A stretch of DNA of 64,000 nucleotides from Nocardioides sp. Root190 (GTDB lineage: Bacteria > Actinomycetota > Actinomycetes > Propionibacteriales > Nocardioidaceae). Below are positions 13,089 to 27,820 of this stretch, one piece after another (position 1 is the stretch's first letter; every line of letters starts with the position of its first letter). The translations under genes were made by a program, and so were the position numbers. The DNA lies in NCBI RefSeq assembly GCF_001428565.1, contig NZ_LMIA01000001.1:581612-645611 (forward strand). The letters are read 5' to 3'. The notes beneath the pieces were generated by a model. That model was given only the letters and a program-made list of their open reading frames with translations, was not told the DNA's origin and ran no database searches.

Positions 13089-14191
13089 TGGCCCTCGCCA
13101 ACACCAACCCCGAGGAGATCCGCGGCGCTCTCGAGTCGTGGCTCGGCGAGCGCCTGCCCGGCGCGACGATCAGTGACTGCGACGTGCCCGCCGCGAGCGG
13201 GATGTCGAACCTGACGATCCTCTTCACCGCCAACGGAGCCGACGGCGCCGAGCTCGGGAAGTACGTCGCACGCGTGGCCCCCTCGGGCCCCTCGGTCTTC
13301 CCCGGATACGACTTCGAGCGCGAGGCCGCGGTCATGAACGCCCTGGCCTCCGTCGGCCTGCCCGCCCCGGTGGTGCGCTGGGTCGAGCTCTCCCCCGACG
13401 TCCTCGGCTCGCCCTTCCTGGTGATGGAACGTGCCTTCGGCCGCGTCCCCGGCGACGACCCGCCCTTCACCGCCGCCGGCTGGGTCCTCGACGACCTGTC
13501 GCCCGAGCAGCGTGGCGAGATGTGCCGCAACTCGCTCGAGGGGATCGCCGCGATCCACTCCGCCGACTGGCGCGCACTCGGCCTCGCCTCGCTCGCACCC
13601 CCGGCGGGCTCCGACGCAACCTCGGTCCACGACGCCGATCTGGAGCACTGGCTGGGCTTCTACGACTGGGCGCGCGCCGGCGACACCAACGCCACCGTCG
13701 AGGCCGGCTTCGCGTGGCTCACCAAGCACCGCCCGGTCGACGACCGCGACCCCGTGCTGCTGTGGGGCGACGCCCGGATCGGCAACATGCTCTTCGGTGA
13801 GGACCTCGCGGTCAGCGCGATCCTCGACTGGGAGATGGTCGGCCTCGGCCAGCCCGAGGCCGACATCGCCTGGTGGCTGTTCATCCTGCGCCACCACACC
13901 GAGGGCATCGGATTCCCTGTCCCAGAAGGCTTCCCGTCGCGCGAGGAGGTCGTGGCGACGTACGAGAAGGCCGCCGGACGCTCGCTAGAGCACCTCGACT
14001 TCCACGAGGTGTGGGCGGCCGTACGGCTCTCGATCATCATGCACCGCGCGGGCAACCTGATGATCGAGATCGGACTCCTTCCGCCGGATGCCCCGATGAA
14101 GTTCAACAACCCCGCCAGCCAGCTCCTCGCCCGACTCATCGGCGCCCCCGCCCCGGGCGGTGACGCGCAGTCGTTCATCGGGAACCGCTGA
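13088..14191 (+). CDS. APH-family small-molecule kinase (ACAD10/11-like)
   Basis: A 367-residue protein of the aminoglycoside phosphotransferase/choline kinase superfamily. Residues about 20-100 form the N-lobe (KYVARVAPSG region), the catalytic loop reads LLWGDARIGNMLF (the usual HGD is WGD, but the catalytic Asp and the metal-binding Asn are kept) and ILDWE supplies the second metal ligand. This pattern is that of the actinobacterial phosphotransferase group related to the kinase domain of ACAD10/11 and LvaA, which phosphorylate hydroxyl groups of hydroxyacyl compounds. An antibiotic-resistance role is unlikely given the catabolic setting. It overlaps both neighbours by one base. Confidence 0.82.
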   Translation: MALANTNPEEIRGALESWLGERLPGATISDCDVPAASGMSNLTILFTANGADGAELGKYVARVAPSGPSVFPGYDFEREAAVMNALASVGLPAPVVRWVELSPDVLGSPFLVMERAFGRVPGDDPPFTAAGWVLDDLSPEQRGEMCRNSLEGIAAIHSADWRALGLASLAPPAGSDATSVHDADLEHWLGFYDWARAGDTNATVEAGFAWLTKHRPVDDRDPVLLWGDARIGNMLFGEDLAVSAILDWEMVGLGQPEADIAWWLFILRHHTEGIGFPVPEGFPSREEVVATYEKAAGRSLEHLDFHEVWAAVRLSIIMHRAGNLMIEIGLLPPDAPMKFNNPASQLLARLIGAPAPGGDAQSFIGNR

Positions 14192-14949
14192 TGGCCTCGA
14201 CCCAGCCAGCGATGGACGATCGTGAGATCGAGCTCCACCGCCGCATCCAGGTCGCCATGGCCTGGTGCGGTCCGGCGTTCGTCGTGCTGCTGTTCGGCGG
14301 CTGGGGCCTGCTCGGCGGGATGATCCCGCTGATCTCCGCCGGCGATGCCCCCTCCGCCGTGGCAGCGGCGTACGACGCCCACCCGACGCTGCAGAAGGTC
14401 GGCCTCCTGCTGGGGCTGATCGGCTGCTTCACGACGGTGCCCTACTTCATCGTGATCAGCCTGCAGCTGCGCCGGATGGAGGGGAGATTCCCCTCGCTGG
14501 CGATCCTGCAGCTCAGCTCCGGACTCATCATCTGCGTGGTCCTGACCATCCCGATGCTGCTGTTCATCGCCACGGCCTTCCGGCCCGAACGGCCCGCCGA
14601 GGTCACCCAGACACTCAACGACATCAACTACATCCTGCTGATCCTGCCGTGGCCCCCGATCATCGGTCAGCTCGTCGCGATCGGCGTCGCGGTGCTGATC
14701 GACCGCGGCCGGGTGTTCCCGCGCTGGGTCGCCGGCTACAGCTTCTGGGTGGCCTTCCTGCTGCTGCCCGCCTCCTTCATCATCTTCTTCCGCACCGGCA
14801 TCTTCGCGTGGACGGGCCTGGTCGGGTTCTGGATCCCCGCCGCCGTCTTCGGCACCTGGTACCTCGTCATGACCCAGGTCCTGCTGCGTGCCATCGCATC
14901 CGAGGCGGCCGAGCTCCGTGCTGCCCTCCCTGCCCTCAAGGAGTCCTGA
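14191..14949 (+). CDS. six-helix membrane protein, paralogue of 33856-34548
   Basis: A 252-residue integral membrane protein with about six hydrophobic helices (near residues 25-50, 70-92, 102-125, 143-165, 180-200 and 208-232). Stretches RMEGRFPSLAILQL and FPRWVAGYSFWVAFLLLP align with RMDKGFPLLAFVQL and FPRWVAFLNFFVALSFIP in the protein at 33856-34548, so the two are paralogues. Family name unknown to me. Both sit in operons with a CrtI-like oxidoreductase, which hints at a substrate-channel or anchor role (inference). One-base overlap with the kinase gene. Confidence 0.78.
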   Translation: MASTQPAMDDREIELHRRIQVAMAWCGPAFVVLLFGGWGLLGGMIPLISAGDAPSAVAAAYDAHPTLQKVGLLLGLIGCFTTVPYFIVISLQLRRMEGRFPSLAILQLSSGLIICVVLTIPMLLFIATAFRPERPAEVTQTLNDINYILLILPWPPIIGQLVAIGVAVLIDRGRVFPRWVAGYSFWVAFLLLPASFIIFFRTGIFAWTGLVGFWIPAAVFGTWYLVMTQVLLRAIASEAAELRAALPALKES

Positions 14950-14950
14950 C

Positions 14951-16564
14951 ATGACCGTTCCCGACAAGACCACGACCGACGTCCTCGTCATCGGCGCCGG
15001 CCACAACGGCCTGGTCGCCGCCTGCTACCTCGCCAAGGCAGGGTTCAGCGTCGAGGTCGTCGAGGCCTCACCCACGATCGGCGGGATGATCTCGACCAAC
15101 CCGATCTTCCCCGAGGCCCCGGACCACCTGATCAACGAAGGTGGCATCCAGGCGTCGTTGTTCCGGTCCTCCGGCATCGAGGAGCACCTGAACCTGCGCA
15201 AGTACGGCTTCAAGCAGATCATCGCCGACCCGTTCCACGTCCACCTCGACCCCGAGGGTCCCTCCCTCGCGTTCTGGCACGACCCGGCGAAGACCGTGGA
15301 GGAGCTCAAATACTTCTCCCCCAAGGACGCCCGCGCCTACGAGGCCTTCGCCCGCTCGCTCGATGCCGCGATGGACCTGGCGATTCCCTACATGAACGGC
15401 CACCCGCTGCGCCCGAGCTCGGAGCTGATGCGGGAGCTGCCGAAGGCGCTGAGGAAGCGCAAGGAGCTGCTGCCGCTGACGACCTTCCTGACGACCTCGC
15501 ACAAGGAGTTCATCGAGGAGCGCTTCGACACCCCGCTCCTGCGGGCCGCGCTGGCCTCGATGCCCCCCTTCTGCTGGATGACGCAGGACGGCACGGCCTG
15601 GGCGCTGATCTACATCGCGATGTGCCACCGCACGAACTCCGCCCGCTTCCAGGGCGGCACCGGCGGTCTGACCAACGCCCTGACCCAGTGCCTGCTGGAG
15701 TACGGCGGCAAGGTCCGCGTCAACAGCCGCGTGACCGAGCTGCTGACGCGTGGCACCGAGGTCACGGGCGTACGCCTCGAGGACGGCACGGACCTCCACG
15801 CCACCACGACGCTGGCGTCCTGCAGCCCGAAGGCGACGCTGGCCCAGCTCCTGCCGGCAGGGATGATGCCCGACCACCTGGAGCGGCGCGCCAGGGCGAT
15901 CCCGACCAACGTGCTGGAGACGACGACCCTCAAGATCGACGTCGCCGTGTCAGGTCGGCTCTCGATGCCGCGGCACACGAAGTGGCGCAAGGACGGCCTC
16001 GACCTGACCGAGCCGATCGTCAGCTGGCAGACCTACGAGGACCACATCGACGCGTGGAACAGCGCCGTGCAGCGGACCTACCCGAAGAACGAGTGCTTCA
16101 TCGGCATCGTCCCGTCGCGCCTGGACCCCACCCAGGCACCTGATGGCCAGGACACCTTCTGGGCCTGGTCGGGCATCTTCCCGCGCAACCCCACCGTCGG
16201 GTGGGACCAGATGCGCGACCAGATCGGCGACAAGGTGCTCGCCGAGTCCTCCCTGTACTACGAGGGCCTGGACAGCATGGAGATCAACCGCCGGGTGATG
16301 TCCGCGCCCGAGCTCGAGGAGCGCTTCAACGTGCCGGACGGGAACGTCTATCACGTCGAACCGGTCGGCATGCGCTTCGGAGGACTGCGTCCTGCGCAGG
16401 GGTTCGGTGGCTACGAGACGCCGGTCCCCGGCCTGTGGATCACCGGCGCGGGGACCCACCCCACCGGCGGCATCTCCGGCCTGCCGGGCAAGAACGCCGC
16501 CGAGGCGATGATCCGAGCCGGTCGCGACGGGGCGCTCACGCGGCTGAGGAAGCGGTTCGCCTGA
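14951..16564 (+). CDS. CrtI/PYROXD2-like FAD-dependent oxidoreductase
   Basis: A 537-residue flavoprotein. The N-terminal dinucleotide-binding motif VIGAGHNGLVAACYLAKAG (about residues 13-31) and the C-terminal FAD motif GLWITGAGTHPTGGISGLPG (about 495-515) are those of phytoene-desaturase-like and PYROXD2-like enzymes, which desaturate or isomerise long hydrophobic molecules. It is the last gene of the four-gene operon starting at 12006, one base after the membrane protein stop. The paralogue at 31369-32676 is about 100 residues shorter and from a different subgroup. Substrate unknown. Confidence 0.87.
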   Translation: MTVPDKTTTDVLVIGAGHNGLVAACYLAKAGFSVEVVEASPTIGGMISTNPIFPEAPDHLINEGGIQASLFRSSGIEEHLNLRKYGFKQIIADPFHVHLDPEGPSLAFWHDPAKTVEELKYFSPKDARAYEAFARSLDAAMDLAIPYMNGHPLRPSSELMRELPKALRKRKELLPLTTFLTTSHKEFIEERFDTPLLRAALASMPPFCWMTQDGTAWALIYIAMCHRTNSARFQGGTGGLTNALTQCLLEYGGKVRVNSRVTELLTRGTEVTGVRLEDGTDLHATTTLASCSPKATLAQLLPAGMMPDHLERRARAIPTNVLETTTLKIDVAVSGRLSMPRHTKWRKDGLDLTEPIVSWQTYEDHIDAWNSAVQRTYPKNECFIGIVPSRLDPTQAPDGQDTFWAWSGIFPRNPTVGWDQMRDQIGDKVLAESSLYYEGLDSMEINRRVMSAPELEERFNVPDGNVYHVEPVGMRFGGLRPAQGFGGYETPVPGLWITGAGTHPTGGISGLPGKNAAEAMIRAGRDGALTRLRKRFA

Positions 16565-16637: not shown

Positions 16638-16901
16638 GTGTGTGCCGGTCAGGCGGGGCTCGGGCGGGCCGGTCTGGTAGACCGTCCCGCACCACAACGC
16701 GAAGATGCTGTCGCCGATCCCCCGCGGGCCGGGCAGGTCCCCGGTCACCCCGACGCCGTCCGCTATCTCGACGTCCTCGAGTCGGCCGTCGGTGCCGGGT
16801 GGACCGTGGCGCTGCTCCTCGTCGCGGCCGTCTTCGCCGTGGCGTTCATCAGCCTCGTCCGGTGGTACCCGAGCGCTCAGGAACGCATCCGCTCCTGGTA
16901 G
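16638..16901 (+). pseudogene. possible small membrane protein or remnant of a transporter C-terminus
   Basis: An open frame of 87 codons from a GTG. The last 45 residues look like real protein: a single transmembrane helix (GWTVALLLVAAVFAVAFISL) followed by a charged tail (VRWYPSAQERIRSW), with third codon positions almost all G or C. The N-terminal half is not protein-like, there is no ribosome-binding site, and the start lies just behind the hairpin at 16576-16620. It may be the surviving end of a deleted multi-helix transporter, or a short membrane peptide. It overlaps the phosphatase gene end by 25 bases. Confidence 0.35.
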
Positions 16902-17569
16902 CGCTCGATCGTGTCCTCGGCCGCGCCGTGATGGAGGAACCAGCCGCGCGCGCCCTGCGAGTGCGACGTGATCTCGTCGATGATGAGGGTGATCGCCTCG
17001 AGCGGCGTCTCCGCCCAGGTCGGGTCCCAGTCAGCACTCATGGCACCGCGGGCGAACAGCCGCGTGAGTACGCCGTCGATGTTGGCGTTCGTCGCCTGGT
17101 AGTCGGCGACCACGGCCTCCACGGGCACGCCCGCCAGCAGGAGCAGGGCGGCGATCGACGCCCCCGTGCGGTCCTTGCCCGCGGCACAGTGGATGTAGGT
17201 CGCACCGTCGTCGGGCATCAGGTCGAGCAGGCTCGCGATGGCGGGGCCGGAGTGGGTGACCATGTCGCGGTAGACGCTGACCAGTGAGTCGCGGCGCGTC
17301 ATCTGGGCGAGGTCCGCGGCATCGAAGAGCTGCCTGGCGACGAAGGTGGTGCTGGCGGGCCAGCGGTACGGCGAGCGGGCGCGCTCCTTGTCCGAGCGCA
17401 GGTCGATGACTGCGGCGGGAGGCCAGGACACGCCGGTGGGCGGCCCGTCGCCGTCGTACAAGGCATCCCCGCGCAGGAGGACGCCGAAGCTGGTCTGCCC
17501 GCCGCCGTCGAGCGGAAGACCCCCGACGTCACGGACGTTGACCGGTCCCACGATCACGGATTCGCTCAC
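16877..17569 (-). CDS. tyrosine-phosphatase-like protein (PTP fold)
   Basis: A 230-residue protein with the bacterial protein-tyrosine/serine phosphatase loop HCAAGKDRTG (His127, Cys128, Arg134) and the N-terminal NVRDVGG motif of this group. Homologues dephosphorylate phosphotyrosine, phosphoinositides or small phosphoesters. It is the last gene of the nine-gene operon from 27820; its start overlaps the upstream stop as ATGA. Beside phosphohistidine phosphotransferases it could remove the phosphate from a phosphorylated intermediate, but that is inference. Confidence 0.88.
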   Translation of the reverse strand: MSESVIVGPVNVRDVGGLPLDGGGQTSFGVLLRGDALYDGDGPPTGVSWPPAAVIDLRSDKERARSPYRWPASTTFVARQLFDAADLAQMTRRDSLVSVYRDMVTHSGPAIASLLDLMPDDGATYIHCAAGKDRTGASIAALLLLAGVPVEAVVADYQATNANIDGVLTRLFARGAMSADWDPTWAETPLEAITLIIDEITSHSQGARGWFLHHGAAEDTIERYQERMRS

Positions 17570-19287
17570 CCGATCACCTCGACCGTTCCGGCGTTGCCGT
17601 CGACCCGAACTCGCATGCCATCACGTAGATCGACGGTACCTGTGCGGGTGTTGGCGACACAGGGCAGTCCCAGCTCGCGGCACACGATGGCGGCGTGGCT
17701 CATCGCCGAGCCGACGTCGGTGACGACCGCCTCGGCGAGCGGGAAGAGCGAGGCCCAGCCGGGGTCCGTCGCCTTGCAGACCATCACGGTGCCGTCGTCG
17801 AAGTCGGCCTCGTCGAGGTCGGTGACGACCTTCACGATGCCCTCGGCGACGCCGGCGCTGACGCCGATGCCGGTCACGACGAGTCCGTCGTGCGGCGCCC
17901 CCGGAGCCTTGAGAGGTCCCGTGTCGGCGGCCTCGGTCACCGGGAGTGAGGTGACCGGGGCGAGTCCGTGCCACACGTGGGGCAGGCGCATCAGGTCGTA
18001 GGCGTCGTGGTCACTGCGACGACGGGCCACGGTCTCGGCCAACGAACCGCCATCGATGACCAGAGCGGAGCGGTCCGTCGCGCGATTGATCCGGTGGAGC
18101 TCGTCGATGGCCAGGAAGCGCACGTCGGCGGGGTCCGCGAGCAGACCCTCCTCGACCAGGCGACGGCCTGCGGTGCGCGCGGCAGCACGGGTCACGTCGA
18201 CGCAGCGCAGGATGTTGGCCCGGCCGGTCTCGCGCCAGTCCGGGGCGTGGGCGGCGAAGCGCAGCAGTGCCCGGGCCGGGACGGCCCGCCAGCGACCGAG
18301 CGCCTCTTCCAGTCGTCGTACGGCGACCGCGTGCTCCTCGGTGCGACGCACGACGAGCGCATCCATGTCCCCGGTACGGCTGCGGTAGCGCTCGGCGAGG
18401 GCGATCACCATCGACGGGTCCTCGCGCCAGGACACCGACTCGACCAGGCCTTCGCGCGGACCGTGGTAACCGTGGCGCTGCAGGAAGGTGTCGATGTCGA
18501 TCTCATCGGCGGAGAGGCGCCACAGGTCCCGCACCAGCTCGAACTCGGCGGTTCCCTGCTCGCTCTTCACCAGCTGGTGGCCGAGCTCGGGCATCCCGGC
18601 CTTCGCCGCCAGCGTCTCGACCTGGCCCATCACACCCTGGCACGCCATCGAGAGGACCATGTGGATCATCAGGACGCGCTCGAACTGGGCACGCGCCTCG
18701 ACCAGCAGTGCGGTGGCACCGGCGAGGTCGAGGTCGTCCGCGGCGAAGGCGGCATGGCGCCACCACTCGGCGATCTCGCGGGCCGTCGGGTCCAGCTCGC
18801 GCATCGCGCGACGCAGCGTGCGTGGGAACTTCACGGCGACGAACGGGTAGCGCCGCATCTTGCGCAGTCCGGTCGGCTCGGGAAGTCCGCCACCCTGGAC
18901 GGAGCCGAAGAGCTGCTCCTCCATCATCGCTGCGGACCCGCCGGGCACCCGGGCAGCCATCTGGCCCATCAGGTCGACGTTGGCGATCGCATGACCGTGG
19001 GAGACCGAGATGAACCGCGCGTCGACGTCGTCCGGCAGCGCGCGCTCGGACTCCGGCATGACGCCGAGATCCACCCAGCAGTCGCGCATCGTCGACTCGG
19101 TCGGCGGGAAGTACAGCGACCAGGTCAGCGGCGTGACCGTGCCGGGCAGACCTTCGTCGACGTTGGCGGTCGTCCACCGCAGCCGGCGCCCCGGGGCGTG
19201 GACGGGGCTGCGCAGCAGGTCGGCCACGGGTGCGCTCGGGACGGGGGTCGGCTTCGTCGTGCGCCGGGTACGAGTCTTCGGTGGCAT
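17566..19287 (-). CDS. PEP-utilising/RPH-like protein lacking the ATP-binding domain (copy 1)
   Basis: A 573-residue protein. The first 45 residues are basic and Pro-rich (MPPKTRTRRTTKP...), followed by a long helical domain of about 420 residues that resembles the substrate-binding domain of rifampicin phosphotransferase (includes RHGYHGPREG), and a C-terminal swivelling phosphohistidine domain with MSHAAIVCRELGLPC, His531 being the phosphorylated residue. The N-terminal ATP-grasp domain of true dikinases is missing, so it must be phosphorylated by another protein, most simply the dikinase-like protein at 23096-24604. Phenylphosphate synthase PpsA has the same architecture. ATG at 19287 chosen because it directly follows the upstream stop at 19289. 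Confidence 0.85.
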   Translation of the reverse strand: MPPKTRTRRTTKPTPVPSAPVADLLRSPVHAPGRRLRWTTANVDEGLPGTVTPLTWSLYFPPTESTMRDCWVDLGVMPESERALPDDVDARFISVSHGHAIANVDLMGQMAARVPGGSAAMMEEQLFGSVQGGGLPEPTGLRKMRRYPFVAVKFPRTLRRAMRELDPTAREIAEWWRHAAFAADDLDLAGATALLVEARAQFERVLMIHMVLSMACQGVMGQVETLAAKAGMPELGHQLVKSEQGTAEFELVRDLWRLSADEIDIDTFLQRHGYHGPREGLVESVSWREDPSMVIALAERYRSRTGDMDALVVRRTEEHAVAVRRLEEALGRWRAVPARALLRFAAHAPDWRETGRANILRCVDVTRAAARTAGRRLVEEGLLADPADVRFLAIDELHRINRATDRSALVIDGGSLAETVARRRSDHDAYDLMRLPHVWHGLAPVTSLPVTEAADTGPLKAPGAPHDGLVVTGIGVSAGVAEGIVKVVTDLDEADFDDGTVMVCKATDPGWASLFPLAEAVVTDVGSAMSHAAIVCRELGLPCVANTRTGTVDLRDGMRVRVDGNAGTVEVIG

Positions 19288-19288
19288 C

Positions 19289-20392
19289 TCAACGCTCCTC
19301 GGGGGACGGCAACTGGGACGGGCGGTAGTCACGCTCGATGACGCCGTACCCGACCTCACCGTCGGGCGCGACGACCCGGACGGTGCTCTGGGTGATGGCC
19401 AGGGCGTCGGGCTCGGTGCGCAGGTCGAGTCCGTTGATGTTCTCGTTGGGCGCGAGGAAGGTCAGCGTGTAGCCGTGCAGCCACCTCGCCCCCAGCTGGT
19501 ACGACGACCCGTCGGCCCGCTCGAAGCCGACGACGAGCTCGCGGGGCTGGTGGGTGCGGACGTCCGCGAGCCCGGTGAACCGGATCGACGCGCCGATCTC
19601 CACGGTGCCGTCCTCGGTCGGGCCGCCCTCGAAGATCGCCTGGGTGCGGTGGTCGACGGCACCCTCGGTGTTCCAGTTGACCAGTCCGTTGACCACTCGC
19701 CCCGAGCCCGGGAAGACGAACACGCAGAAGTGCAGGCCGCCGAGGCGACTGACGTCCCGGGGGCCGCTGGAGTGGTCGCGGATCGCGGTGCCGTCGACGT
19801 CCCATGCCTCGCCGGCCACGCCGGCCCCTGCCGTGAGCCGACCAGTCGCCCGGAAGCCCTGGGTGTGGTGGAAGGCCGCCCACTGCAGACCGTCGATCCC
19901 CAGCGCAGCGTGCATGTCCCACACCGGAGCGACGGCCTCGAGGTCGAGGGCGAAGGTGAACGGACGCGCCGGCCCCGCTCCGATCGGCCCCTGCGACATG
20001 GCGGCCAGGTCAGTCATCTCTCCGGCACCGTCGAACTCCAGGCGCCAGCGCGTCAGTGGCTCCACGCAGGTGATCCGGAGGTTGCCGGTCGCAGGGCCCC
20101 GGTCGTCGGGCGCCCTTCCCCAGGACCGGTCGACCAGCAGCCGACCGTCGGGCAGGAGCGCGATCACCTGCGCCCACCACAGCTCTGGGTCCTCTGGCCA
20201 GCGACCGCAGTGGATGAACGCGCCGACGCCCTCGCCGCCGTCCGCACCCGGTGACCAGACGTGGAAGAACATCGTTTCGCTCCAACCCGGCACGTCCGCC
20301 GGGATGGCATGGAGCATGTCATCGTCCGGATCGACCCCGAACGGGTTGGCCCCGACGAGGACCCGGACGGCGCCGGTGGTGACCGCGCTCAT
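19289..20392 (-). CDS. CrtC-like lipocalin-fold protein (DUF7064/7065 type)
   Basis: A 367-residue protein predicted to be rich in beta-strand. The motif GTAIRDHSSGPRDVSRLG near residue 205 corresponds to the RDRSWG region of the CrtC/AttH-like superfamily, here with His-Ser-Ser-Gly. It is related to the proteins at 12006 and 25230 in overall plan but is clearly divergent. It sits between the luciferase-like gene and RPH-like copy 1 with a one-base overlap (TGATG) upstream and a one-base gap downstream, so it is surely cotranscribed. Binding or hydration of a hydrophobic substrate is the family precedent; no enzyme activity is established here. Confidence 0.7.
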   Translation of the reverse strand: MSAVTTGAVRVLVGANPFGVDPDDDMLHAIPADVPGWSETMFFHVWSPGADGGEGVGAFIHCGRWPEDPELWWAQVIALLPDGRLLVDRSWGRAPDDRGPATGNLRITCVEPLTRWRLEFDGAGEMTDLAAMSQGPIGAGPARPFTFALDLEAVAPVWDMHAALGIDGLQWAAFHHTQGFRATGRLTAGAGVAGEAWDVDGTAIRDHSSGPRDVSRLGGLHFCVFVFPGSGRVVNGLVNWNTEGAVDHRTQAIFEGGPTEDGTVEIGASIRFTGLADVRTHQPRELVVGFERADGSSYQLGARWLHGYTLTFLAPNENINGLDLRTEPDALAITQSTVRVVAPDGEVGYGVIERDYRPSQLPSPEER

Positions 20393-21492
20393 CAGCGTGC
20401 TCCGACAGGGACGGGGGTGCGCCAGGCGGCCGCCACTGCGGCGTTCTGGCCCGGCGTGCTGCCATAGGTCGCGACCTCGTCGGCACCGGCGGCGCGGTAG
20501 TCCTGCAACCGGGCGACGACATCGGCGGTGCTCCCGAGTGCGCAGGACTCCTCGATCCACGAGTCCGGGACCAGACGCGCGGGCTCCAGCAGCTCGATGC
20601 GGTGGAAGGCGGTGTCGGCCATCTCCCCACTGGTCAGCTGCTGGTGGGCACGGAGCCGCTGCACCGGCTCGGGATCCCAGCCGTTGGCGCGGACCGTGGC
20701 GTCGCCGTACTCCTTGGCCTGGAGGTAGGTCACGGCCCGGGCGTGCGCGAGCGCACGCGCCTCGTCCTGGGCGAGGTCGGGGGCGGTGATCACGCACGCC
20801 ACCACCCGGAGGCTGGCGGGGTCGCGGTCGATCCGCTCGCAGGCCTCCCGCAGGCGGGCCACGGCGGCGGCCACCGCATCAGGCGTGAAGAGCGGCGGCA
20901 GGATCACTCCGTCGAAGGCAGTGGCCGCAGCGGCCGCTGCCCGGGGCAGGGCGAACGATCCCGACCACACCTCCGGCGGCGCCCCCTGGTGGACGTCACC
21001 GAGCTTGATCGACTCGTACCGACCGGCCGGCCCGTCGTGCGTCACGACCTCGCCGGCCCACAGCCGGTGCAGGAGCTGCACGTAGTCGACGATCCCGTCG
21101 TAGCCGGCGGTCCGGAGGCCTTCGTGCTTGAGGTAGCCGTGGTCACCACGGCCGAGACCGAGCACGAACCGCTCCCCGAACATCGCCTGCATGGTGGCGC
21201 CGAACGCAGCCATGTGGAGCAGGTGTCGACGGGCCGGCGAGACCAGACCGGTGGCCAGACCGAGGTGTTCGGTGCGCGCTCCGACGGCGCCGAGGAAGAC
21301 GCCCGCCTCCTTGAGGTTCCAACGCTCGGAGAAGAAGATCCGCCTGAATCCGAGCTGTTCGGCCTCGACCGCGTCGGCCAGTCCCTGCCGCGGCGTACGG
21401 ACTGCCGTCTCGTTGGGTACGTCGTCGGGCAGCCGGGACGCGACGCGACCCGCCACGACGTAGGCACTGAGATCGGGGTGCTGGGTTCTCAT
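20392..21492 (-). CDS. luciferase-like (LLM-class) flavin-dependent oxidoreductase
   Basis: A 366-residue TIM-barrel oxidoreductase of the bacterial luciferase superfamily. Typical stretches are EQLGFRRIFFSERW, LGLATGLVSPARRHLLHMA and RFVLGLGRGDHGYL. In actinobacteria many members use F420, others FMNH2; sequence alone does not decide. The ATG at 21492 overlaps the upstream stop as ATGA. It is the only redox enzyme of the nine-gene operon and may oxidise or reduce the compound handled by the phosphotransferase proteins. Confidence 0.87.
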   Translation of the reverse strand: MRTQHPDLSAYVVAGRVASRLPDDVPNETAVRTPRQGLADAVEAEQLGFRRIFFSERWNLKEAGVFLGAVGARTEHLGLATGLVSPARRHLLHMAAFGATMQAMFGERFVLGLGRGDHGYLKHEGLRTAGYDGIVDYVQLLHRLWAGEVVTHDGPAGRYESIKLGDVHQGAPPEVWSGSFALPRAAAAAATAFDGVILPPLFTPDAVAAAVARLREACERIDRDPASLRVVACVITAPDLAQDEARALAHARAVTYLQAKEYGDATVRANGWDPEPVQRLRAHQQLTSGEMADTAFHRIELLEPARLVPDSWIEESCALGSTADVVARLQDYRAAGADEVATYGSTPGQNAAVAAAWRTPVPVGAR

Positions 21493-23099
21493 GCGAGGAC
21501 CTCCACGGTTCCCTTGTCGCCGTCGAGACGGAGCAGTTGTCCGTCCTGGATCCGGTGGCTGCCGGTCTCCGTGCCGCACACGCAGGGGATGCCGAGCTCG
21601 CGGGCGACGATCGGCCCGTGGCTGAGGAGGCCACCGTGGTCGGTGACCACTCCCCCGGCGACGAGGAACAGCGACACCCAGCTCGGGTCAGTGGTCTCGC
21701 AGACGAGGATGTCGCCGTCGTCGAGCTCCACCTCTGCGGGATCGCGGACCACCCGAGCACGACCCTCCACGACACCGCCGCTGGCAGCCACACCGGTCAC
21801 GACATCGCCGACCTGCGCGGCCGCGCCGGCTCCGTCACCGGCCTTGACGACGTCGGGCACTCCGGACCACGACATGGGCAGACGCAGTTCCTGCCGGGTC
21901 CGCAGCTCCTGGGTACGACGGGCCACCAGCACGCGCTGGTCTGTGCGGACACCGGCCACGACCTGGTCGTGGCGCAGGTGGAAGACGTCGTCGCGCTCCG
22001 CGATCACGTCGGCCTCGACGAGCAGCTCACCGAGCCGACGTGCTGCGGCGCGGGCCACGTCGAAGGTCAGCAGGTAGCCCGCCTTGCCCTGTTCTCGCAG
22101 GGCGAGGAAGCGCGAGGCGGTCCGGAGCAGGAACGCGGTCGGACGCCGTCGGAGGCGCGGGGTCGCAGCAAGGAGGGTGGTGATCGCCTCGGCCCGCACC
22201 GCGACCTGGGCAGCGCTCCGTGCCTTGGGCGAGCGGGGCGAGCCCGGCTCGATCGCCCGGTAGTCACCGAGCCGCGCCAGGATCGGCGACGGGTCCTCGC
22301 GCCACACCGATCCGTGCAGCTGGCCCTCACCGGGACCGTGGTAGCCGTGCCGGTCGGAGAACTCCGGCATCGCGATCTCCCCGTGCGCCAGGGCCCACAG
22401 GTCGTGTGCGACCTCGTTCTCGTCCGAGCCGACACCCGAGAGCAGCTGGGCCTCGAGCCCGTCGAACCCGACGGCGGCAGCTGCCTCGGCAACCTTGTCC
22501 GCGAAGCTCGAGCTGATCATCGCGACGCCCATGTGGATCGACATGATCTCCTCGAACCGTGCCCGCGCATCAGCGAGTACGGCGAGACAGCCGGCCTCGT
22601 CGAGGTCCGGGATCCGCGGCAGCTGCTCCAGACGCCACCGGCGCAGCTCGGCGAACATCGCGTCGTGCCGCTTCGGCACACCGATCAGCCACCGCGGCGC
22701 TCGGACGAGGATGGCGGGAAGCCGCTTCATGGAGTTCGCATCGACCGTCTCGGGCCGCGCGTAGCCGAACAGCTGCTTCTCGACCGCTGTGGCCGACGTC
22801 CCGGGCATCACGTTCGCGATCTCCCGGAACATGTCGATGTTGCCGGCACCGCGTCCGGCGAAGACCGCCCAGAAGCAGTCGTCCGCCTGGGTGGGGACGT
22901 GCACGTCGGCATCCGTGTAGACGCCGAGGTCGCGGAACATGCGACGGAACGCCCGCTCCATGGGAGCGAAGACGAAGCTGATCCCGAAGGCGGTGAAGAC
23001 GCCGGGGAAGGCCTCGGCGACATTGCCCGTCGTCCAGGTCGTCTCCGCGCGCGGTGACGGGGTGTCGATCAGGTCGAACATCTCCTCGACGGTGGTCAT
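21489..23099 (-). CDS. PEP-utilising/RPH-like protein lacking the ATP-binding domain (copy 2)
   Basis: A 536-residue protein with the same plan as copies 1 and 3: a helical substrate-type domain (WTTGNVAEAFPGVFTAF at the N-terminus, RHGYHGPGEGQL mid-protein) and a C-terminal phosphohistidine domain. Its catalytic loop reads LLSHGPIVARELGIPC with His494; the residues after His (Gly-Pro) differ from the Ala-Ala of the other copies. The ATP-grasp domain is absent. The ATG at 23099 overlaps the stop of the dikinase-like gene as ATGA, which favours making the two proteins together as a complex. Confidence 0.85.
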   Translation of the reverse strand: MTTVEEMFDLIDTPSPRAETTWTTGNVAEAFPGVFTAFGISFVFAPMERAFRRMFRDLGVYTDADVHVPTQADDCFWAVFAGRGAGNIDMFREIANVMPGTSATAVEKQLFGYARPETVDANSMKRLPAILVRAPRWLIGVPKRHDAMFAELRRWRLEQLPRIPDLDEAGCLAVLADARARFEEIMSIHMGVAMISSSFADKVAEAAAAVGFDGLEAQLLSGVGSDENEVAHDLWALAHGEIAMPEFSDRHGYHGPGEGQLHGSVWREDPSPILARLGDYRAIEPGSPRSPKARSAAQVAVRAEAITTLLAATPRLRRRPTAFLLRTASRFLALREQGKAGYLLTFDVARAAARRLGELLVEADVIAERDDVFHLRHDQVVAGVRTDQRVLVARRTQELRTRQELRLPMSWSGVPDVVKAGDGAGAAAQVGDVVTGVAASGGVVEGRARVVRDPAEVELDDGDILVCETTDPSWVSLFLVAGGVVTDHGGLLSHGPIVARELGIPCVCGTETGSHRIQDGQLLRLDGDKGTVEVLA

Positions 23100-24604
23100 C
23101 GCCCCTCCTCGCTGGTCGAGGTGCCAGGAGCGCCAGCGGCGAGCCTCGCCACCACCGAAGCCGGATCGCTGTCCTCGATCCCGAGCCACTCCCGCAGCGT
23201 CGCCAGGGCCGGATCGTCCGCGGTGGCGGCGGGTTCGACGGCCAGCGCACCGAGGTGGACCGTGCCGCTGCCTCCGTCGACGGTGACGACCTGACCGGCG
23301 AGCGCCATCAGGGTGTCCGTGCCGGTGCCGACCACGCAGGGCAGGCCGAGCTCTCGGCAGACCACGGCGGCATGGGACGTGGAGCCCCCGATCTCGGTCA
23401 CCACGGCCACCGACGCGGCCATGCCGGCCACGTCGTCGGGATCCGTGGTCGGCCGCACCAGGACGACCGATTCGCCGTCGTCGGCACGGTCCTCGGCCTC
23501 ATCGGCGTCGGTCACGACCACGCCGACGGCGATGCCCGGGCAGGCCGGCTTGCCGGTGGCGACGGCGGGCGACGCGGCCACGTCCGCGGCCGCGAGCCGC
23601 GGTCGCAGCAGTGCGCGGACGTCGTCGGGGCGGATCCGGGCGATCGCCTCATCGCGGTCGATCACGCCGGCCTCCGCGAGGTGGATCGCCGAGCGGACCG
23701 CGGCTTCCGGTGCCCGCTTCGCGGGACGGGACTGCAGGAGCCACAGGGTGCCGGACTGCACGGTGAACTCGATGTCCATCACGTCGCGGCCTTCGCGTTC
23801 CAGGGTGCGGGTCGCCTCCATCAGCTCGGCGTGGACCTGCGGCTGGGCCTGGGCGAGTGTGTCGAGCGGGAGGGCGTCGGCCCGGCCCGAGACGACGTCC
23901 TCACCCTGCCCGCGGGCCAACCACTCGCCGTACACGGAGCCACCGCCGGTCAACGGGTCCCGGGAGAACAGGACGCCGGTGCCGGAGTCGTCGTCGAGGT
24001 TGCCGAACACCATGGCCTGCACAGTCACGGCGGTTCCGCCGTCGTCGGGGATGCCGCGCGCGGCGCGATAGGCGATCGCCCGCTTCGAGAACCAGCTCTC
24101 GAGCACGGCACAGACCGCGAGGTAGAGCTGCTCCCACGGGTCCTCCGGAGCCGGGGCGCCGACGACCTTGGCGAACTGCTCCTCGAAGCGGACCCGGGTG
24201 TCGGCGGCGTACGCCGTGCTGCCGGTCTCCTGGGCGAGACGCTCCTGGCTGGCGGCGTTGATCCCGAGGTTGAGAACCGTGTCCATCATCCCGGGCATGC
24301 TGGTGGACGCACCCGACCGGACCGAGACCAGCAAGGGCCGCTCCCCGCCGAAGCAGCGATCGACGGCCTGCTCGATGCCTGCGACGGCCGCGACGACCTC
24401 CTGCCAGATCTCGTCGGGCAGCGTGCCGCCGGCCCGGTGGTAGGCACGGCAGACGTCCGTGGTCACGACGAACGCGGGCGGCACCGGGATGCCGAGTCCG
24501 AGCATCTGCTGGATGCTCCACGCCTTGCCGCCGATCTCCTCGCGGCTGTGGCCGCCGTCGCCGGCCAGCGCCACGACGGAACCCGTCGAGACGACCGTGC
24601 TCAC
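23096..24604 (-). CDS. pyruvate-phosphate-dikinase-like protein, ATP-grasp plus phosphohistidine domains only
   Basis: A 502-residue protein with the N-terminal nucleotide-binding half of PPDK (GGKAWS 26-31, VRSGASTSMPGMMDTVLNLG 95-114, and DIEFTVQSGTLWLLQSRPAK near 310-330) and the swivelling domain with STSHAAVVCRELGLPC, His411. The C-terminal PEP/pyruvate TIM barrel of true PPDK, about 350 residues, is missing, so pyruvate cannot be the acceptor in the usual way. It is the only member of the operon able to use ATP. Likely role: autophosphorylation and phosphate transfer to the three RPH-like partners or their substrate. GTG start at 24604, overlapping the upstream stop as GTGA. Confidence 0.88.
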   Translation of the reverse strand: MSTVVSTGSVVALAGDGGHSREEIGGKAWSIQQMLGLGIPVPPAFVVTTDVCRAYHRAGGTLPDEIWQEVVAAVAGIEQAVDRCFGGERPLLVSVRSGASTSMPGMMDTVLNLGINAASQERLAQETGSTAYAADTRVRFEEQFAKVVGAPAPEDPWEQLYLAVCAVLESWFSKRAIAYRAARGIPDDGGTAVTVQAMVFGNLDDDSGTGVLFSRDPLTGGGSVYGEWLARGQGEDVVSGRADALPLDTLAQAQPQVHAELMEATRTLEREGRDVMDIEFTVQSGTLWLLQSRPAKRAPEAAVRSAIHLAEAGVIDRDEAIARIRPDDVRALLRPRLAAADVAASPAVATGKPACPGIAVGVVVTDADEAEDRADDGESVVLVRPTTDPDDVAGMAASVAVVTEIGGSTSHAAVVCRELGLPCVVGTGTDTLMALAGQVVTVDGGSGTVHLGALAVEPAATADDPALATLREWLGIEDSDPASVVARLAAGAPGTSTSEEGR

Positions 24605-25218
24605 AGCGCCCGTCCTGCGGCGGCCTCGTCGGCCCGGGTCAGTCCGGCGAGTCCGATCAGCTCTTCGTGCAGCTCGAACCACACCGTGTGATAGCTGTCC
24701 GCGAGCGGGCGGGCGAACCAGCTGTGGTCGCCCTCGCGGATCAGCTGGAGGGCCCGTGCGAACTTCGCCGGGTAGTGGCCGAGCCGGGGTGCGAGGTCGA
24801 CGAATCGCTGCAGCAGTGGGGCAAAGGCCACGTCGAGGACACCGAGGTCGTCGATCACCGCGCCGTCGTAGGTCGCGTCCGTGTGGTCGTTGGGCGTCGA
24901 CTCGTCCTTGAGCTGCCAGCGCGTCATCAGCGCCTTGAGCACGTTGTTGTGGTCGTCGAACTCGTGATAGGCGGCCACCAGGGCTGCCCGGTCGACGGTG
25001 TCCCGCTCCTCGGCGAGCTCGGCCTCCAGCGCGATGCGCCCGACCGGGGTGAGCTTGAGGCGCTCGCGCGCCTCCTCGATGTGACCGGCCGCCTGCAGGT
25101 CGCGCAGGATCGGCGCAGCGGCGTCACCGGAAAGGCCGGCGGCCGCAGCGAGGTCGTCGGCCTTGGCGCGGCCCTTGAGCCGCACGGCCTGGAAGAGGCG
25201 GAGTCGTTCGTTCGTCAT
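24601..25218 (-). CDS. winged-helix protein with C-terminal helical domain
   Basis: A 205-residue protein. Residues 1-70 look like a winged helix (FQAVRLKGRAKADDLAAAAG, then SGDAAAPILRDLQAAGHI as recognition helix and LTPVGR as wing end). Residues about 75-205 are helical with conserved-looking aromatics (FVDLAPRLGHYPAKFARAL). It could be an operon-specific regulator or, since such modules accompany PEP-utilising proteins, a structural subunit. It is translationally coupled to the dikinase-like gene and lies 11 bases after the CrtC-like gene. Confidence 0.65.
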   Translation of the reverse strand: MTNERLRLFQAVRLKGRAKADDLAAAAGLSGDAAAPILRDLQAAGHIEEARERLKLTPVGRIALEAELAEERDTVDRAALVAAYHEFDDHNNVLKALMTRWQLKDESTPNDHTDATYDGAVIDDLGVLDVAFAPLLQRFVDLAPRLGHYPAKFARALQLIREGDHSWFARPLADSYHTVWFELHEELIGLAGLTRADEAAAGRAL

Positions 25219-25229
25219 GGCGGGTCTCC

Positions 25230-26159
25230 TCAGTGGACGCGGTGGACGATGCCCTGCTCGAAGAAGCCCGCGCCGGGCTTCCCGTCGAGCTCGAGCTGCA
25301 TGAAGTCGTCATAGGTGCCGAAGGCCGGACCGTCGGTCTCCGCGCCCATGGGCACGAAGAAGCCGGCGAGGCGATCGGTGAGGGTGACCACCCGGACCGA
25401 CCCGTCGTCGAGGGTCAGCGTGGTGGCGAGGAACTGCGCGGCCGCCGTACGACGGAAGCCGATCTCCTTGATCGAGTGCGACCCGGCGGCGTCGATCACG
25501 AAGCCGTCCGCCTTGAGCACCCCGTTGGTGCCGAGGAACTTCATCGCGGTGACGAAGACCTGTCCGGGGGTGCCGTCGGCATCGGCGAAGACACCGACCA
25601 GTCCGGCGTACTCGGCCCATTGGGCCGACTCGTCGCGGAATCCCCAAGTGCGGTCGCGCATCCCGAAGCCGTCGATCTCGTAGCGCGCCCCGTCGACCTC
25701 GAAGGTGCCGACCAGGCGGCAGGCCTGCTGGAAGTGCTGCAACGGCTTGCCCGGAACGAGGGCCGGGATCAGGTCGTTCAGCGAGTAGTCGGCCGGCTGG
25801 TGCACCGGGGAGTTGGTGAGTCGTGCGACCAGGTCGGGGTGGTCGACCGTGATGGTGCCGTCCAGGCCGAAGGAGATGCTGGTGCTCTCGAAGGAGCCGG
25901 GCTCGAGCTCCTCGATGACCTCGACGACCTCGCCGCCGCCGAGCAGGACCGAGCAGCGCGCGCGTCGGGCACCGGTGCCGTTGGGTGAGGTGGAGAGGTG
26001 GAAGGTGCCGAAGACCTGACGCTCGACGTCCCAGAAGGACAGGTAGGCGTTGTCCTTCCAGACCGGGTCACCCGGACCCGCCTCGTCGTTGTGGATGGGT
26101 TCGGCCAGCGGCCCCCAGAGGTCGGTGCCGGTCGTGGTGGGCTCAGTGGTCGCGGTCAT
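25230..26159 (-). CDS. CrtC-like lipocalin-fold protein (DUF7064/7065 type)
   Basis: A 309-residue protein, the second CrtC-like member of this operon. It contains YEIDGFGMRDRTWGFRD (about residues 158-174), the clearest RDRxWG signature of the three in this window, in a strand-rich sequence with many aromatics. Its ATG overlaps the stop of RPH-like copy 3 as ATGA. The pairing of a CrtC-like gene directly with an RPH-like gene happens twice in this operon, suggesting that the two act on the same molecule (inference). Confidence 0.75.
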   Translation of the reverse strand: MTATTEPTTTGTDLWGPLAEPIHNDEAGPGDPVWKDNAYLSFWDVERQVFGTFHLSTSPNGTGARRARCSVLLGGGEVVEVIEELEPGSFESTSISFGLDGTITVDHPDLVARLTNSPVHQPADYSLNDLIPALVPGKPLQHFQQACRLVGTFEVDGARYEIDGFGMRDRTWGFRDESAQWAEYAGLVGVFADADGTPGQVFVTAMKFLGTNGVLKADGFVIDAAGSHSIKEIGFRRTAAAQFLATTLTLDDGSVRVVTLTDRLAGFFVPMGAETDGPAFGTYDDFMQLELDGKPGAGFFEQGIVHRVH

Positions 26160-27820
26160 GCGGTGACTCCTTCAGGCTGGGTGGGGTGCTGGGCGGGGTG
26201 CTGGATTGGATTCGCTCGTTCGAGGACCTCGACGGTCCCGGCCCTGCCGTCGACGCGGACGAGGTCGCCGTCGCGCAGGACCTGGGTGCCGGTGCCGGTG
26301 TTCATGACGCAGGGGATGTCGAGCTCCCGGGCGACGACGGCGGCGTGGCTCATCAGCCCGCCGATGTCGACGACCAGTGCGCCGGACAGGAACATCAGGG
26401 AGACCCACGCGGGGTCGGTCGTGTGGGCGACGAGGATGTCGCCGTCCTCGACCTCGGCGCTCGACGGGTCGAGCGCCACGACGACGCGACCCTCGACCGT
26501 GCCGGGGCAGGCGCCGAGGCCCTGGAGCAGGGTCACCTCGCCGTCCGCGACCGGCACGAAGGGCAGTGGCTCCGGCTGACCGGTCCAGGCCGACGGGACC
26601 CTCAGCGACTGGTACTCCTCGCGCTGCGCCCGACGGCGGGCCACGACGCCCCGCAGGTCGTCGCGGTGGCGCAGCAGGTGGTCGGACAGCTCCGCGACGG
26701 TGAGGTACGACGCGTCGTCCGCACCGTCGATCCGTCCGATGGCGACCAGCTCGGCGCCGATCCGACGCGACGCGGCACGCAGGACGTCGAGGCTCTGCAG
26801 GTAGGACACCTTGCCCACGCCGCGCAGCGGAATGAAGCGACGGGCCAGACGGAGCACGACCCTCGCCTTCTGCCGACCCACCGGGCCGAGCGAGGCCATC
26901 AGGGCGGCCTCGGCACGTTGCCGCTCGGCGAGGTGCTCGGCGTCGCGGGCATCTGGTGCCTCGGAGTCGGCCTTGACGGCGTACTGCGCGACGATGCGCC
27001 GCACCGCCTCGGGGTCCTCGCGCCAGACGCGGGTGTCGACCTCGCCCTCGCCGGGACCGTGGTAGCCGTGCCGGCGCAGGAACTCCCCGAGCGGCAGGGT
27101 GCCGCGCGAGACGTGCCACAGGTCGAGCAGGACGACGTTCTCCTCGTGCGGGGTCCCGCGCAGCAGCGCGGAGGCATCGACCCCGGCCCGATCGGCCAGC
27201 TTGTCGAGCTGCTCCTGGACGGGCTGGATGGCGGCCGCGCTGATCAGCGCCTGGGCCGCGAGGTTCTCGGCGAAGCGCCGGTCCGCCTCGGCCGCGAGGC
27301 GCTGGAGCGACGCCAGGTCGAGCGAGTCGATGCGGGCGACCTCGGTGCGCCACCAGGCGTCCGTGCGCGCCCGGAGGTCCTCGATCCGATGGGCGATGCC
27401 GGCGAAGCTGCGGGGGTAGCGGGCGAGGATGAAGGGGACCCGGCGCAACGAGGGTCGAGCGACGTGGTCGGGTGGCACGAAGCCGAAGAAGTCGCGGGCC
27501 AGCGCTTCCCCGCTCTGACCGGGGACGAGGTCGCCGATCTCGCAGAGGAAGTCCACCCGCACCGCCATGCGGCCGAAGAAGGCGTTCGTGATGCGTTCTG
27601 CCGGATCGGCGGGGATCTGCATGCGGTCCGTCGCAAGAACGCCCATCGCGTGGAACGGCAGCCGCAGACCGGTCTCGCTCGCCGGCACCCAGGCGCTCGC
27701 TGTCAGCGGGGTCATCACGCCGGGCACTGCCTCGGCGAGATTGATCGAGGACCAGGACGAGCCTGCGGGAGCGGTCGCGTGGAGGACTGTCCCGTCCTCG
27801 TCGGTGGAGTGGTGCGGCAT
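26156..27820 (-). CDS. PEP-utilising/RPH-like protein lacking the ATP-binding domain (copy 3)
   Basis: A 554-residue protein and the first gene of the nine-gene operon. It has the helical substrate-type domain (NLAEAVPGVMTPLTASAW near the N-terminus, RRHGYHGPGEGE mid-protein) and a C-terminal phosphohistidine domain with LMSHAAVVARELDIPC, His492. Like copies 1 and 2 it lacks the ATP-grasp domain. GAAGGA precedes the ATG at 27820. The operator at 27831-27858 lies only 11 bases upstream, so a bound TetR protein would block expression of the entire operon. Confidence 0.86.
   Translation of the reverse strand: MPHHSTDEDGTVLHATAPAGSSWSSINLAEAVPGVMTPLTASAWVPASETGLRLPFHAMGVLATDRMQIPADPAERITNAFFGRMAVRVDFLCEIGDLVPGQSGEALARDFFGFVPPDHVARPSLRRVPFILARYPRSFAGIAHRIEDLRARTDAWWRTEVARIDSLDLASLQRLAAEADRRFAENLAAQALISAAAIQPVQEQLDKLADRAGVDASALLRGTPHEENVVLLDLWHVSRGTLPLGEFLRRHGYHGPGEGEVDTRVWREDPEAVRRIVAQYAVKADSEAPDARDAEHLAERQRAEAALMASLGPVGRQKARVVLRLARRFIPLRGVGKVSYLQSLDVLRAASRRIGAELVAIGRIDGADDASYLTVAELSDHLLRHRDDLRGVVARRRAQREEYQSLRVPSAWTGQPEPLPFVPVADGEVTLLQGLGACPGTVEGRVVVALDPSSAEVEDGDILVAHTTDPAWVSLMFLSGALVVDIGGLMSHAAVVARELDIPCVMNTGTGTQVLRDGDLVRVDGRAGTVEVLERANPIQHPAQHPTQPEGVTA

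Follow-up and report, generated by a model that had tools for sequence, protein, structure and literature searches.

The window analysed here is a 64,000-nucleotide stretch of the genome of Nocardioides sp. Root190 (contig NZ_LMIA01000001.1, positions 581,612 to 645,611). Its minus strand carries, at 16877-27820, nine tightly packed genes, which encode a putative phosphoryl donor (VADK) and its neighbour PART, three acceptors (RPH1, RPH2 and RPH3), two lyase-like proteins (CRT1 and CRT2), an oxidoreductase and a phosphatase (Table 1). An initial annotation, made from the sequence alone, had described nine minus-strand genes that overlap or lie at most 11 bases apart, and re-reading of the sequence confirms this layout: neighbouring genes overlap by 4 or 1 bp at six of the eight junctions, and the other two junctions are gaps of 11 bp and 1 bp. 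We conclude, with a probability of about 0.7, that the operon's product is a small-molecule dikinase in which several acceptors share one donor, with a relay from VADK to the acceptors and with paired lyases, as proposed below.

The arrangement is not due to chance: another species of the window's genus (G489) has all nine genes in collinear order, within a collinear island, and the nine show 64-90% protein identity and dN/dS values of about 0.12-0.31. In three genomes of Mycobacterium in the wide sense (loci L144, L145 and L146), the order is RPH1-CRT1-PART-VADK-RPH2-LLM-acceptor, with CRT2 nearby on the opposite strand; no PTP gene is seen in these loci. Parts of the operon also occur in Gordonia oryzae (L163) and in Nocardia (L160, L165).

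Table 1. Genes of the nine-gene operon and of its flanks (sizes in amino acids, aa).
Gene	Size	Position	Strand	Features
RPH1 acceptor	554 aa	26156-27820	minus	substrate-binding and phosphohistidine domains, no ATP-grasp; catalytic motif RG..K
CRT1	309 aa	25230-26159	minus	DUF7065; AttH/25-phosphosteroid-lyase fold; 4-bp overlap with RPH1
PART	205 aa	24601-25218	minus	family usually adjoining VadK genes; Rv1126c-type by position
VADK	502 aa	23096-24604	minus	ATP-grasp and phosphohistidine (His411) domains, no PEP barrel; proposed phosphoryl donor
RPH2 acceptor	536 aa	21489-23099	minus	His494; catalytic RE..K (R335, E336, K339)
LLM class F420-dependent oxidoreductase		20392-21492	minus	TIGR03857, 430 bits against a cut-off of 218
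CRT2	367 aa	19289-20392	minus	weak, sub-threshold DUF7065 match; the other lyase-like protein of the operon, adjoins RPH3
RPH3 acceptor	573 aa	17566-19287	minus	catalytic RE..R
PTP-like phosphatase		16877-17569	minus	Y_phosphatase3 (Pfam); HCxxGKDR motif read from the sequence
Divergent gene	206 aa	27926-28546	plus	TetR-like by eye only; homologue likewise divergent in G489
DUF7064-like protein	360 aa	12006-13088	plus	sub-threshold Pfam match; among the seed rows of profile A4; third lyase-like member
APH-type kinase		13088-14191	plus	best solved relatives 9fsg and 3ats; adjoins DUF7064-like gene
Membrane-type protein	252 aa	14191-14949		no Pfam match; part of the plus-strand block 12006-16564; relatives in many acceptor loci
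FAD-dependent oxidoreductase		14951-16564	plus	homologues close to the L144 and L145 orthologous operons, also in L169

Domain split between donor and acceptors

The central claim of the initial annotation was a split enzyme, in which one protein has ATP-grasp and phosphohistidine domains without a phosphoenolpyruvate (PEP) barrel, and three have substrate-type and phosphohistidine domains without an ATP-grasp. An ATP-grasp hidden in the latter, or loss of the histidine motifs on re-reading, was to count against it. The domain search called for finds PEP-utilizers (PF00391) in all four of VADK, RPH1, RPH2 and RPH3, and PPDK_N (PF01326) among the nine operon proteins in VADK alone. RPH1-3 have no other Pfam domain above cut-off, and a concealed ATP-grasp in them was rejected with both Pfam and an ATP-grasp profile. 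The histidine motifs persist: that of the acceptors is conserved, and His411 of VADK is invariant in 17/17 aligned relatives. With the acceptors free of ATP-grasp and the histidines in place, the split-enzyme model stands; domain content, structure, whole genomes and fused proteins all lend good support to one ATP-using subunit with several acceptors.

Against a curated cut-off of 456 bits, VADK reaches 686 with NF004531, a family that takes in both truncated and full-length pyruvate phosphate dikinases (PPDKs) and that we take to include Rv1127c, the VadK of M. tuberculosis. Many full-length PPDKs also pass the cut-off, so this score alone does not single out VadK. The alignment of VADK with PPDK from the PDB, however, stops at PPDK residue 536 of 874; the chain ends after the histidine domain and the barrel is missing. 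A PART homologue is adjacent to truncated VadK in 15/20 stretches, and in 3/3 further ones; PART itself shows only a weak, N-terminal winged-helix similarity in the PDB. These features identify VADK as a truncated PPDK of the VadK/Rv1127c type, an assignment based on architecture and gene neighbours, with PART matched to Rv1126c by position. The earlier label 'PPDK-like' can now be narrowed to the NF004531 family and this type. A whole-genome scan finds PPDK_N in VADK only, which disposes of a second such protein serving the acceptors; four of the five PF00391 proteins of the genome belong to the operon. In another genome (G277), the VadK is likewise the sole PPDK_N protein.

The acceptors resemble rifampin phosphotransferase (RPH), which ranks first (E ~2e-57) when a profile of 14 acceptors is compared with the PDB. 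The predicted structure of RPH2 (mean pLDDT 88) superposes on residues 318-867 of RPH-Lm with Z 30.3 over 464 residues at 21% identity. The RPH-Lm catalytic residues Arg666, Glu667 and Lys670 (PMC4844700) map onto R335, E336 and K339 in an alignment of the model, and the catalytic histidine has its counterpart as well. By this model, RPH2 corresponds to the rifampin-binding and swivel part of RPH minus the ATP-grasp; in RPH itself, all three domains form one chain. Among 82 acceptor-like proteins, the histidine is kept in 82/82, and the triplet reads RE..K in 27, RG..K in 24 (with RPH1), RE..R in 18 (with RPH3) and otherwise in 13. An ATP-grasp profile run over these and 13 outgroup proteins matches seven of the 82 (L110, one of two in L178, L180, L189, L194, L220 and L221).

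In a tree of 91 sequences, 63 rows make up the clade of stand-alone acceptors (support 100/99), within which three ATP-grasp-fused proteins are scattered; Rv2047c-like proteins form a separate clade of eight (support 100/99). One donor family therefore appears to supply two or more lineages of acceptors. RPH1 has orthologues in L144, L145, L146 and L163; RPH3, on a long branch, is unsurely placed, and the third acceptor of L144-L146 is not its orthologue on the tree.

It has to be considered whether such acceptors instead activate a carbonyl or carboxyl carbon for condensation, like the prodigiosin ligases PigC and RedH, with no alcohol being phosphorylated. RPH1 and RPH3 do score higher with RedH (NF052632; 144 and 141 bits) than with rifamycin phosphotransferase (NF041857; 136 and 125), whereas RPH2 favours the latter (160 versus 126 bits). 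Since the top match in both PDB and fold searches is RPH, and the acceptors are linked to phospholyase-like genes, we regard condensation as improbable.

Co-occurrence of donor and acceptors across genomes

If the acceptors draw on VADK, genomes with stand-alone acceptors should also encode a donor. In a survey of the class (296 genomes, best four candidates per genome scored), full-length stand-alone acceptors were found in nine genomes (G000, G050, G069, G073, G091, G107, G123, G277 and G297), and truncated VadK in all nine, often unlinked; in G050, G073 and G107 it was read at locus level. Within the window's genus (194 genomes, best seven candidates scored, acceptor threshold E 1e-60), seven have an acceptor match: G000, G083, G489, G502, G537, G547 and G587. 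G000 and G489 have at least three acceptors each. Stand-alone acceptors also occur in G502, G537 and G547, where they are more distantly related (two-piece matches of 274-279 bits) and have a VadK-type gene within 5 kb. The VadK-type match in G489 and these three scores 601-764 bits. G083 has no truncated VadK; here the acceptor, 861 aa long and encoded next to a CRT1-like gene, includes a PPDK_N domain itself (283 bits). In G587, the acceptor match is partial, the only PPDK is full-length, and the acceptor-like gene lies near a 296-aa ATP-grasp-only gene, in the manner of HpeHI.

The pattern recurs in Mycobacterium in the wide sense (118 genomes). A VadK-type match is present in 58/118, a count that excludes G354 (full-length PPDK only) and G388 (broken) and includes a contig-edge fragment in G340. 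An Rv2047c-like gene is present in 52/118, excluding G388 (broken) and G423 (317 bits). Both genes occur together in 50 genomes, VadK alone in eight and the Rv2047c-like gene alone in two (G368 and G400; Fisher p 4e-22). Stand-alone acceptors, predicted for the eight VadK-only genomes, are present in 8/8; among the 58 genomes that lack both genes, a full-length acceptor was absent from all 16 examined, and it was absent from G354 too. Across all 118, 17 have full-length acceptors (that of G353 in two pieces) and 15 of these have VadK; the other two (G383, G431) have 821- and 827-aa proteins that carry an ATP-grasp. Counting ATP-grasp-less full-length acceptors and Rv2047c-like proteins together, 57/58 VadK genomes have one, versus 2/60 of the others (p 8e-30). 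Two of these VadK-negative genomes were read for partial acceptor matches in shorter frames: in G335 the acceptor-like gene is paired with a 317-aa ATP-grasp gene, as in HpeHI, and in G358 two frames match the ATP-grasp.

Two further loci are worth recording. Twelve acceptor matches occur in G365 (L258-L260), some of which cluster near the VadK gene, and a Myxococcota contig (L185) has VADK-like and acceptor genes back to back.

As precedents, the initial annotation named phenylphosphate synthase and missed the two-component small-molecule dikinases HpeHI, CreHI and PpsAB, described in PMC12167813. In these, as here, an RPH-like substrate and swivel acceptor lacks the ATP-grasp, which resides on a separate protein. 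The present operon differs in that its donor is derived from PPDK and accompanied by PART, in its ratio of one donor to three acceptors, and in its lyase-like partners; its substrates are probably not phenols. VADK is moreover no ATP-grasp-only subunit, as it bears its own phosphohistidine domain. The VadK/Rv1126c pair is alike in other respects, being a truncated PPDK with ATP-grasp and catalytic histidine beside a PART-family gene in Mycobacterium-type genomes. VadK has been published as a regulatory kinase without a small-molecule acceptor, however, whereas VADK sits among three.

These precedents frame two other views of the donor. In the first, the acceptor swivel domain docks directly on the VADK ATP-grasp, and His411 is regulatory or vestigial, which would make the operon a one-donor, three-acceptor dikinase of the HpeHI type. 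HpeHI, CreHI and PpsAB are described as working in this way (PMC12167813), the fused acceptors combine one ATP-grasp with one swivel domain, and the pairs in G335 and G587 have ATP-grasp-only partners. The invariance of His411 argues against direct transfer, as do reports that the VadK histidine is phosphorylated and that rescue fails with H422A and H422D alike, in line with a turnover intermediate (PMC13400623). We consider direct transfer possible, though on balance unlikely. In the second view, VADK phosphorylates proteins as a regulatory histidine kinase, and the phosphohistidine proteins encoded beside it are either targets under its control or unconnected with it. The reported interaction of VadK with methylcitrate-cycle enzymes and its effects on flux (PMC13400623) are in keeping with this. 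Set against it are the small-molecule-binding domains of the acceptors, their co-occurrence with VadK, the self-sufficient fused acceptors where VadK is absent, and the standing of VADK as sole PPDK_N protein of its genome; we judge it quite improbable.

The shared-donor relay nevertheless faces several contrary points. The co-occurrence p-values overstate independence, because the genomes are related. In G368, an Rv2047c-like gene occurs in the absence of VadK and of any PPDK_N match, and G419, one of the 50 genomes counted with both genes, keeps VadK while its Rv2047c-like gene is broken (the best matches of the others are in open frames of roughly 790 aa upwards). Four loci (L071-L074) have diverged VadK-like and PART-like pairs with no acceptor seen in the fetched stretch. 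RPH1 has a Gly at the position of the catalytic Glu667, and the Arg is missing in 12/79 acceptor-like proteins outside the window. Finally, since HpeHI transfers directly without a second histidine domain, the VADK histidine could be regulatory.

Lyase-like partners and the proposed chemistry

CRT1 and CRT2 had been labelled 'CrtC-like'. This identity as carotenoid hydratases is rejected: the CrtC Pfam model matches neither at E up to 0.1. Their kin are DUF7065 and 25-phosphosteroid lyase (25-PSL). A profile of CRT1, CRT2, the DUF7064-like protein and relatives (A4) has 25-PSL as its best PDB match (E 1.4e-7), a CRT1-centred profile (A5) also finds it (E 5.5e-5), and it is the sole PDB sequence match below E 0.01 for the CRT profiles. 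The predicted structure of CRT1 (pLDDT 88.9) shares its fold, with Z 23.2 to 9g2i at a root-mean-square deviation of 3.6 over 266 aligned residues and 16% identity. A CRT-like gene lies directly beside 29/63 acceptors versus 56/1165 other genes (p 2e-19), in stretches fetched around acceptors or VadK with genes from a crude caller. Acceptors of the RG..K type have a CRT-like neighbour in 16/23 cases and those of the RE..K or RE..R type in 8/43, a difference that phylogeny may explain. Two apparent acceptor-CRT fusions (L258, 1208 aa; L267, 932 aa) were not counted, because the acceptor end of L267 is in another frame and the acceptor match of L258 stops short.

A kinase coupled to a phospholyase has precedent in the 25-hydroxysteroid kinase and 25-PSL of Sterolibacterium (PMC8449060, PMC11061730), which phosphorylate an alcohol and then eliminate the phosphate. 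That kinase is a single 40-kDa phosphotransferase-like protein, probably of the APH type, whereas the operon's kinase is a split dikinase. Because the CRT proteins are kin of 25-PSL, an acceptor with a lyase-like neighbour suggests ATP-dependent dehydration of a hydrophobic alcohol.

The lyase assignment is open to challenge on several counts. AttH (Z 23.9), pericyclases and kievitone hydratase (Z 21-23) share the fold at a level with 25-PSL, so that fold alone cannot fix the CRT reaction, and to our knowledge neither pericyclases nor kievitone hydratase handle phosphate. The CRT proteins may thus be cofactor-free hydratases or cyclases, with phosphorylation serving for trapping or transport. 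When CRT2 or the DUF7064-like protein was compared singly with the PDB, 25-PSL was not among the matches, no lyase-like gene directly adjoins RPH2, and the CRT profile favours finding neighbours, as it was seeded partly with acceptor-adjacent genes. On the other side, 25-PSL is the only PDB match below E 0.01 at sequence level and has the highest identity to CRT1 among the top structural rows (the others reach 10-12%), and the CRT genes adjoin kinase-like genes. We therefore hold a hydratase or cyclase role to be rather unlikely, and retain the lyase reading.

The initial annotation had envisaged ATP-driven phosphorylation of hydroxylated hydrophobic substrates, which would activate them for breakdown. 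The split model behind this idea is well supported, and phosphorylation itself is likely; given the resemblance to 25-PSL, the activation step is revised to phosphorylation followed by phosphate elimination in two of the modules. In the scheme that we propose, VADK, with PART as partner subunit, would take a phosphoryl group from ATP onto its own His411 and pass it to the mobile phosphohistidine domain of RPH1, RPH2 or RPH3. This domain would then swing round and phosphorylate the hydroxyl group of a hydrophobic alcohol in the binding site, much as RPH phosphorylates rifampin. In the RPH1/CRT1 and RPH3/CRT2 pairs, the lyase-like protein would eliminate the phosphate and turn the alcohol into an alkene, an ATP-dependent dehydration. 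The F420-type oxidoreductase and the phosphatase may handle the products. The substrate is probably a polycyclic isoprenoid (sterol- or terpenoid-like), which would be degraded by the island's P450s, Rieske oxygenase, CoA ligases and beta-oxidation enzymes.

The gene content of the window is consistent with degradation of such a compound. It includes LIV-type ABC genes, two P450s, a ferredoxin-reductase-like flavoprotein, an acyl-CoA dehydrogenase, thiolases, a ChsH2-type OB protein, a CoA transferase, Rieske alpha and beta subunits, CoA ligases and hydratases. MlaE-type permease genes adjoin L144, L145 and L146 (one or two genes scanned in each), and L144 has a weak MlaD match nearby. At lower coordinates in the window, the APH kinase and DUF7064-like genes (12006-14191) look like a second kinase/lyase pair, of the APH type. 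They belong to a plus-strand block (to 16564) with the membrane protein and the FAD enzyme, and Mycobacterium triplex (L169) has homologues of parts of this block close to an acceptor. At a distance of about 37 kb from the nine-gene operon, G489 has an extra CRT1-like and APH pair and an extra acceptor and CRT2-like pair (L252, 6976-11703).

VadK, Rv2047c and a possible role in mycoketide synthesis

VadK of M. tuberculosis is reported to autophosphorylate on His422, to be more soluble when co-produced with Rv1126c and to restore growth on propionate in neither the H422A nor the H422D form; the proposal made for it is that of a regulatory kinase (PMC13400623). In L153, L154 and L156, a gene of 4151 or 4145 aa lies between VADK plus PART and the Rv2047c-like gene; that of L153, the one scanned, encodes a bimodular polyketide synthase. 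In L155, a large gene cut by the stretch end, the Rv2047c-like gene and VADK all lie within 13 kb. Pks12, for comparison, has 4151 residues, and the enzyme that phosphorylates mycoketide was called unidentified in a 2012 review (PMC3318773). The genes rv1127c, rv2047c and pks12 are all needed with mycobactin and not with carboxymycobactin, hemin or hemoglobin alone (PMC7058343, Table 1), a pattern that is supportive and not unique, since 9/45 genes in that table have it.

These observations suggest a role for VadK and the Rv2047c-like acceptor in phosphomycoketide synthesis. The VadK study contains two points that call for caution: two-dimensional thin-layer chromatography showed unchanged phthiocerol dimycocerosate (PDIM) and slightly raised SL-1, in a section that makes no reference to phosphomycoketide, and the VadK partners it reports are others than Rv2047c (PMC13400623). 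Its main text has no mention of rv2047, and that of a steroid transcriptome paper (PMC7593942) has none of dikinases or phosphotransferases. No paper joining VadK and Rv2047c as one enzyme was found, in a literature coverage without most subscription journals. Tentatively, and at somewhat less than even odds, we propose that VadK-type truncated PPDKs are not regulatory but act as shared donors of a modular relay from ATP through two histidines to a small molecule, with interchangeable acceptors for lipid alcohols. In the present operon there would be three acceptors, two of them coupled to phospholyases; in slow-growing mycobacteria, VadK would work with Rv2047c (a reductase-like part plus an acceptor) to make phosphomycoketide from the Pks12 product.

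New features are a donor that derives from PPDK, retains a phosphohistidine domain and is accompanied by a partner gene; several acceptors for each donor; a connection with lyase-like proteins; and the relationship to VadK. If the proposal is correct, it would define a shared phosphoryl-donor module for the lipid-alcohol chemistry of actinobacteria and would extend ATP-dependent alcohol dehydration beyond the anaerobic sterol pathway. The kinase step in the synthesis of the mycoketide antigen (PMC3318773) would become a concrete prediction. VadK would gain a small-molecule role, where its requirement on cholesterol and propionate is now explained as regulation, and the mycobacterial relatives of the operon's parts thus suggest a possible true role for this puzzling, virulence-linked kinase.

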